Assembly: GCA_900095875.1 (NCBI GenBank)
Contig: LT608311.1
Span: 2,450,774-2,514,773 of the forward strand
Direction: 5' to 3'
Length of the DNA: 64,000 nucleotides
Source of the DNA: Caecibacter massiliensis
GTDB lineage: Bacteria > Bacillota > Negativicutes > Veillonellales > Megasphaeraceae
Shown here: in pieces, positions 45,508 to 51,113 of the stretch
How positions within the stretch are numbered: position 1 is the first letter of the stretch
How the letters are laid out: each line of letters opens with the position of its first letter
Made by a program: the position numbers and the translations under genes
The notes under the pieces: model-generated
Seen by the model: the letters and a program-made list of their open reading frames with translations, nothing else
Databases searched by the model: none
Told to the model about the DNA's origin: nothing

Positions 45508-46572
45508 ATGACGATACACAACGAAACAGCCCATGACTGGCCGCAGCTGCTGCTCGGCTGGTTCCGGACTCACCGCCGTGACCTGCCCTGGCGCACTTCG
45601 CCGCGTGATCCGTATAAAGTATGGGTTTCAGAAATTATGCTGCAGCAGACGAAAGTCGAAGCCGTCCGGCCGTACTATGAAAACTGGCTGGATCATTTTC
45701 CTACGGTGGCGTCCCTGGCCAGTGCCACCCAGGAAGAAGTGCTGCGCCAATGGCAGGGGCTGGGGTATTATTCGCGGGCACGCAATCTCCATCAGGCCGT
45801 TTGTGAAGTGCAGGCCCGGTACGGCGGGAAGGTACCGGATAGGGAAAAGGATATGCTGTCACTCAAAGGAGTCGGTGCCTATACGGCCGGGGCAGTCCTC
45901 AGTATTGCCTATGGCCGGCCGGTCCCGGCTGTCGATGGCAACGTGCTCCGCATCTTTTCCCGCCTGTACCTCATAGAGGATAATATTTTATCGGCGAAAG
46001 TAAAAAAAGAAGTTACCCGCCTGGCACAGGATGTCATCCCCGACGATGCGCCGGGCGATTTCAATGAAGCGCTCATGGACCTGGGAGCTTCGATCTGCAT
46101 TCCCCGTCATCCGCGCTGTCAGGAATGTCCTCTTGTTTCCTGCTGCCTTGCCCATGAAAAAGGGCGGGAGACGGAACTTCCGGTCCGCATTGTCAAAAAA
46201 GACAAGCCTGCGGTGGATATAACCGTTCTGGTCGTTTCCGACCGGCAGTCCTGGCTCATCCATCGCCGTCCGGCAAAGGGACTGCTCGCTTCTATGTGGG
46301 AATTTCCCAATGCCGTGGGAAAGGGAAATGCCGGGCTGGATGCAGCCAGAGAAGTTCTGAAAAAAGCAGGAATCCGCGCCGGCAGTGCCAGCGGGCCAGT
46401 CGGTACACTGCGTCATGTATTTTCCCACAAAGTCTGGCAGATGACGATATATACAGCCCCGTATGCAAATGGGACGCTATTGGATAAGGAGGATTGGCAG
46501 TGGCTGCCACAGGCTGGCTACACGCAGGTTCCCTGGGCCGGGCCCCATGGAAAAATCACTGCCATAGTTTAG
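45508..46572 (+). CDS. mutY: A/G-specific adenine glycosylase
   Basis: The 354-residue enzyme excises adenine opposite 8-oxoguanine. It shows LPWR, the catalytic SEIMLQQTKVEAVRPYY near residue 38, the helix-hairpin-helix LKGVGAYTAGAV near 122, the 4Fe-4S cysteines C-x6-C-x2-C-x5-C in CIPRHPRCQECPLVSCC near 195, and a NUDIX-like C-terminal MutY domain. ATG 45508 is used; GTG 45472 upstream lacks a better ribosome site. An extended -10 (TGGTATAAT, 45431-45439) precedes it. Confidence 0.95.
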   Translation: MTIHNETAHDWPQLLLGWFRTHRRDLPWRTSPRDPYKVWVSEIMLQQTKVEAVRPYYENWLDHFPTVASLASATQEEVLRQWQGLGYYSRARNLHQAVCEVQARYGGKVPDREKDMLSLKGVGAYTAGAVLSIAYGRPVPAVDGNVLRIFSRLYLIEDNILSAKVKKEVTRLAQDVIPDDAPGDFNEALMDLGASICIPRHPRCQECPLVSCCLAHEKGRETELPVRIVKKDKPAVDITVLVVSDRQSWLIHRRPAKGLLASMWEFPNAVGKGNAGLDAAREVLKKAGIRAGSASGPVGTLRHVFSHKVWQMTIYTAPYANGTLLDKEDWQWLPQAGYTQVPWAGPHGKITAIV

Positions 46573-49586: not shown

Positions 49587-51113
49587 TTAATTATCGAATG
49601 CTTTCAGCGCATCTGATGCGATATGGAGCGTGCGCAGCTGGGGTGCTTTTTTATACTGATGGCCTTCCATACGCTTAACAATATCCGCCAGGCTGGAAAC
49701 GGCTTTTACGATGTACGGTCCTTTATTGAGCATGACGCATTCGGCCCGTTCACTCATGGCGGCATCGGTGATTTCAGCCCGGGACGGAATGCCTGTCTTG
49801 ACGAGGTTTTCCAGAACCTGTGTAGCCCAGATGACGGGAATATGGGCAGCTTCACAAATCCAGAGTATTTCTTCCTGCAGCTCTGCCAGACGATGATATC
49901 CCGCTTCAACGGCCAGATCGCCCCGGGCAATCATAATGCCAAAGGGATTCCGGGAAGCGGCCTAGATGATGATTTCTGGCAGATTATGCACACTGTCTCT
50001 GGTCTCTATTTTTGCGATGATAGCCATGTTCCGTGCTTTATTTCCCATCCGTTTGTACAGTTCATCCTGCAACAGAAGAATATCGGCGCGGCTGCGGACG
50101 AACGAATAGCCGATTGCGTCGGCATGATGGATAATGAAATCGAGATCGGTCAGATCCTTTTTCGTCAGGGGCGTAATGTCCAGTGGTGTTTTAGGGAAAT
50201 TCAAGCTTTTTTTATTTTTCAGACGGAATCCCTTGACTTTTGTCGAAATGACGCGCAGATAGGCTCCCTGAGGCATAAGCCTGGTGACGACACAATTCAG
50301 TTTGCCATCATCGATGACGACGGAATCGCCTTCCTGAAGATGATCGAATACTTGGGGGATACTACAGGTAATGATGACATTTCCTGTATAATCGGCAGGG
50401 TAATCAGAAATTTTTCCACGGGCGAGGAAAAAGAAATCATCTGTAAAGACACGGTCGTCATCACCGGGAACTAATACCTGGGAAATGCGGACTTTCGGAC
50501 CGGCCAGATCCATGTAGATTTTACAGCGTTTCTTTGTTTCTTTTTCGGCTTTATGGATATGGTGCAGCATGGCCTGCCATATATCCCGTGTGTCATGAGC
50601 GCAGTTGATGCGGGCCATGTCCATGCCTGCTTCGAGAAGATTGCGGACCAGTTTGTAGTCCGTAGCCGCTTCCGGAGGCATAGTCACCATAATATTCGTA
50701 TAGGATGCATCGGGGTGACTGCCAAAAATCAGATTGGAATTATGAGCCAGCAGGCGGCTGCCGTGAAAAAACCATTTTGGTGCAGGGTAGGCGATGAGTT
50801 CATGTTCCTGCTTGTGGCAGATCCGCCCCAATGAAGCGATGACGGCATCGAGATTCGCCATCGTACGGGCTTCGCTGCGCCCAAGTGAAGATAATCCCAA
50901 TAACAGCAGCTTTTCCTGCAGGGGCCGCAGGTCGTGGCAGCGTATGGCAAGATAAAAAGCCAGATTCAGGGCACTGAAGCGGAAGGAGCTGCGCCGGATA
51001 GATGGAGAAACAGCTTGATACATTTTCATACCCTGCTCTAAAACGTTCTGGCGAAGTTCGAACAAGGTTTGATATAGGTCATTCATTTCTTTTAGAGAAG
51101 GGGTTGATTTCAT
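49587..51113 (-). pseudogene. Pyruvate-kinase family protein broken by an in-frame amber codon
   Basis: Read from ATG 51113 (GGAGG seven bases before it) the frame is open for 383 codons, then TAG at 49964-49962, then open in the same frame for another 125 codons to 49587. The two halves are both pyruvate-kinase-like: the first has MDMARINCAHDT, MDLAGPKVRI and DFIIHHADAIGYSFVRS; the second has [12 protein letters not shown] and [11 protein letters not shown], including the catalytic-site region. An N-terminal extension (~110 residues) has LLGLSSLGRSEAR. The stop precedes the MIARGDL motif, so the upstream product lacks part of the active site. Sequencing error or strain mutation cannot be told apart here. 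Confidence 0.85.

Follow-up and report, generated by a model that had tools for sequence, protein, structure and literature searches.

An in-frame TAG interrupts an accessory pyruvate-kinase-family gene of Caecibacter massiliensis

A pyruvate-kinase-family gene of Caecibacter massiliensis is interrupted by a single in-frame TAG, and the likely explanation, in our assessment, is that a paralogue which the organism can spare was inactivated very recently by a nonsense mutation. The main rival of this reading is an error in the sequence, and decoding of the TAG is unlikely. The gene is situated on the minus strand of the window, by which we mean the whole stretch of 64,000 nucleotides that was analysed, and is made up of the following features.

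49965 to 51113, minus strand: 5′ part of the gene, 383 codons from ATG to TAG, encoding the N-terminal region (residues ~1–130) and about three quarters of the kinase barrel
49962 to 49964, minus strand: in-frame TAG, at a position that encodes Gln (10) or Lys (1) in 11 orthologues
49587 to 49961, minus strand: 3′ part in the same frame after the TAG, 124 codons and TAA, holding the metal-site Asp of the ARGDL motif and the Thr of the ATQ motif

Retranslation of 51113-49587 (minus strand) yields 383 residues, the TAG at 49964-49962, a further 124 residues and TAA, in agreement with the coordinates and flanking peptides of the original prediction. The TAG is the sole interruption of this frame, which contains no indel, and an AGGAGG ribosome-binding site is found just 5′ of the start ATG. 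Read through, the protein matches the Pfam PK domain (PF00224) in a single stretch, covering positions 4–315 of 328 with 175.9 bits at a cut-off of 30. Scored separately, the halves reach 114.8 bits before the TAG and 48.6 bits after it and cover adjoining parts of the model, up to position 237 and from position 244, respectively; the gathering score is exceeded by the read-through protein and also by the pre-TAG part alone. Judged from its sequence, the frame is not a chance ORF. The orthologues align across the TAG, and over the 116 aligned codons that follow it there is no gap relative to the intact relatives, which upholds the earlier view of a point nonsense event and led us to reject a frameshift at this site. 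For annotation, this means that two ORFs become one disrupted pyruvate-kinase-family gene.

The best NCBIfam model is the pyruvate kinase model PRK14725 (NF011314), matched with 571.7 bits, which is under the equivalog cut-off of 642 bits. The protein has in common with this model a long N-terminal region and the lack of a C-terminal domain past the barrel, and its C-terminal half aligns up to model position 611 of 614, but it differs in its score below 642 bits, in a match that falls into two stretches and in the TAG interruption. On the basis of this match, the protein is classified as a member of a two-part pyruvate-kinase family without the usual C-terminal domain, whose architecture consists of a long N-terminal region that has no Pfam name and a barrel soon after which the protein ends. 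With canonical pyruvate kinases (TIGR01064; PF00224 plus C-terminal domain) it shares barrel homology across 325 residues and, in the read-through protein, the positions of the catalytic Arg, Asn, Asp, Lys, Glu, Asp and Thr residues. In contrast to these enzymes, the TAG gene lacks the C-terminal allosteric domain and encodes an additional N-terminal region of ~130 residues, the Ser and Thr of the K+ site are replaced by Ala and Leu, and a Lys is present at the position of rabbit Glu117. This position is a Lys in 77 of 80 wider relatives, and the Lys117 pyruvate kinases characterised so far are K+-independent (PMC5501398), and for that reason the two-part family is probably K+-independent too.

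The catalytic positions were assigned by alignment to solved pyruvate kinases, and Arg168, Asn170, Asp202, Lys368, Glu370, Asp399 and Thr431 (read-through numbering) are invariant in all 80 wider relatives, which come from cyanobacteria, Chloroflexi, Proteobacteria and Firmicutes. Asp399 and Thr431, the ARGDL Asp and the ATQ Thr, lie 3′ of the TAG, as does the rest of ARGD, which is likewise invariant in 80 of 80, and hence the complete catalytic set is absent from any one translated product. This bears out the claim of the original prediction that family members need the region after the stop. Deprived of these two residues by the TAG, the 383-residue product is expected to lack activity.

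The N-terminal ~130 residues (window 50700-51113, minus strand; loci L094-L173) have no Pfam match, and the motif LNLAFYLALRCHDLR...GLSSLGRSEAR...NLDAVIASLGRI in this region shows good conservation across the genus and the sister genus. Members of the two-part family are scattered among cyanobacteria, Chloroflexi, rhizobia and Firmicutes. The scattered distribution together with the N-terminal region suggests horizontal transfer and an uncharacterised domain.

The position of the TAG is a sense codon in every relative compared. The near relatives matched by an alignment-based search are Megasphaera species or MAGs, and among the 11 orthologues, nine of the same genus and two of another genus of the same family (59–70% identity), the position is Gln in ten (CAG or CAA) and Lys (AAA) in one. 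In the 80 wider relatives the same column holds Gln in 31 and otherwise Arg, His, Ala and further residues. A stop is conserved in 0/11 of the former and 0/80 of the latter. A separate lesion is present in the orthologue L015 (contig 30 of G002), whose frame is shifted near the C-terminus and contains an in-frame TGA; either the gene was disrupted independently or the fragmented assembly has a sequencing error here. This stop was rejected as support for recoding, as it is not the same event as the TAG and lies close to the C-terminus, in a shifted frame.

The same genome contains two canonical pyruvate kinase genes, both of full length (449 and 445 bits) and free of internal stops; the search for a second pyruvate kinase gene that had been proposed as a check thus returned two intact ones. 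Among the 14 congeners searched, the accessory gene is absent from three genomes that are 99% complete (G005, G006 and G010), which gave matches to canonical pyruvate kinases only. It is likewise unmatched in G007 and G008, less complete genomes that provide weaker evidence. Because both canonical pyruvate kinases are unbroken and the gene is missing from some congeners, the accessory gene is, as far as gene content indicates, one that the genus can do without. Directly downstream lies a gene for a Nitro_FeMo-Co family protein (49478-49086), which has a promoter-like sequence of its own (11 of 12 matches, a consensus match only), and therefore polar effects need not follow.

The part of the gene that follows the TAG shows no visible decay, and its conservation is on par with that of intact orthologues. 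Its mean distance to four outgroup orthologues is 17.7% (0.177), compared with 18.3–19.2% for three intact orthologues, and the pre-TAG distance to the same outgroups is 43.1%, compared with 43.1–44.1%. Relative to the intact orthologues, there is thus no excess of change after the TAG that would indicate relaxed selection. Synonymous sites are saturated between the species, so that dN/dS is unable to date the event. As the post-TAG part is gap-free and shows no decay, three options are left: a very young lesion, one that is not real, or one that is suppressed. The absence of relaxed selection is expected if the lesion is very recent, and it dates rather than decides, since a sequencing error or an efficiently read-through stop predicts the lack of decay equally well.

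Decoding of the TAG, whether by a suppressor tRNA, a reassigned codon, pyrrolysine or programmed readthrough, would yield the full-length enzyme and could explain why the downstream part looks as much under selection as it does in intact orthologues, but such decoding is improbable. A profile search of the genome identified RF1 (525.6 bits) and gave no match to PylS, and at the loci covering the 57 tRNA genes found with a tRNA model, ARAGORN called normal anticodons and none with the sequence CTA. TAG is an ordinary stop elsewhere, terminating 12 of the 52 long ORFs that tile the window, and at 46570-46572 it ends an ORF directly after which the ATG of the next gene follows. The RNA downstream of the interrupting TAG is not unusually stable (fold z = −0.68), and the stop is not kept in any relative. 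Recoding is unlikely because all of these lines are negative, and it was rejected. A suppressor and a programmed readthrough event, two of the three causes that the original prediction had left open, are therefore unsupported: the first by the release factor, the missing PylS and the lack of a tRNA reading TAG, the second by the sense codon in every orthologue and the ordinary RNA fold. The third, a recent mutation, fits best. To our knowledge, basal readthrough of a single UAG is never excludable from sequence; it is nevertheless very improbable that, with no dedicated tRNA, ribosomes read past the TAG often enough to be useful, supplying small and regulated quantities of an accessory enzyme and keeping the downstream part under selection. 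It is barely credible that two cooperating proteins are made from the gene, one of 383 residues and the other starting at an internal ATG (49934-49932). This codon lies in frame nine codons past the TAG, but its Met simply belongs to MIARGDL, a conserved motif; the sequence 5′ of the ATG shows no clear ribosome-binding site, and none of the 11 orthologues is split there. Where stop-codon recoding is claimed, the TAG gene can serve as a clean negative case.

An assembly or base-calling error, in which case the organism would have a sense codon and an intact gene, is unlikely, though it has more in its favour. There is no decay past the TAG, the inferred ancestral context ATC-CAG-GCC contains CCAGG, and genes for C5-cytosine methylases as well as a Vsr homologue occur in the genome. 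CCAGG/CCTGG sites carrying 5-methylcytosine are documented positions of consensus errors in nanopore assemblies (PMC6591954). However, the chromosome is one contig, 100% complete and 0.07% contaminated, long ORFs tile 94% of the window, where no series of broken genes is seen, the best solved match of the C5-methylase is HhaI, and a CCWGG target is not assignable. Within the window, CTAGG is not in excess (7 found, 6.4 expected) and CCAGG is not clearly depleted, and systematic C-to-T miscalling is thus not indicated. The CTAGG count and the ORF tiling argue against such systematic miscalls but not against one single error.

We infer that the TAG is real in the organism, as it is in the given sequence, and that a CAG (Gln) to TAG mutation in the accessory gene would be its simplest origin. 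Translation would then end after 383 residues, short of the barrel strand and loop that hold the metal-binding Asp and the catalytic Thr; no active enzyme would be made, and glycolysis would be carried on by the two intact canonical pyruvate kinases. The lesion may be a strain-level variant. As in bacterial nonsense pseudogenes, a premature stop removes essential residues and orthologues are intact elsewhere, and the single point nonsense mutation, the dispensable paralogue and the intact orthologues in sister species are shared features. The gene shows no difference from such pseudogenes, except that with its one lesion it appears unusually fresh. The TAG is ordinary in kind and does not look like a new decoding trick, and on its own it is of little significance, whether it marks a recent loss-of-function allele of an accessory glycolytic gene or a mistake in the sequence.

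In Enterobacteriaceae, Dcm methylates the second C of CCAGG, and in E. coli lacI methylated CCAGG sites are mutation hotspots that yield amber codons. The context of the TAG fits deamination of a methylated CCAGG as the cause of the mutation, but the fit hinges on nothing more than the C preceding the codon, as the G after it opens a conserved Ala codon, and the methylase is not assignable to CCWGG, so that this cause stays a guess.

Several methylase loci were observed in the genome. A defence-like cluster (L182:3703-11013; G000 C2, ~225.7–233.0 kb) encodes a C5-cytosine methylase, an SNF2-type helicase with a ZorD/DrmD-like match and a Vsr endonuclease, together with one weak match to a restriction-enzyme model and two unmatched or weakly matched proteins. 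Two similar paired modules, in which a ParB/N6-type methylase is followed by a C5-methylase (L183:2456-5375 and L184:2350-5098), are probably prophage or mobile elements. Across the whole window, CTAG is strongly depleted (28 found, 106 expected, both strands) and GATC is depleted about two-fold (292 found, 610 expected).
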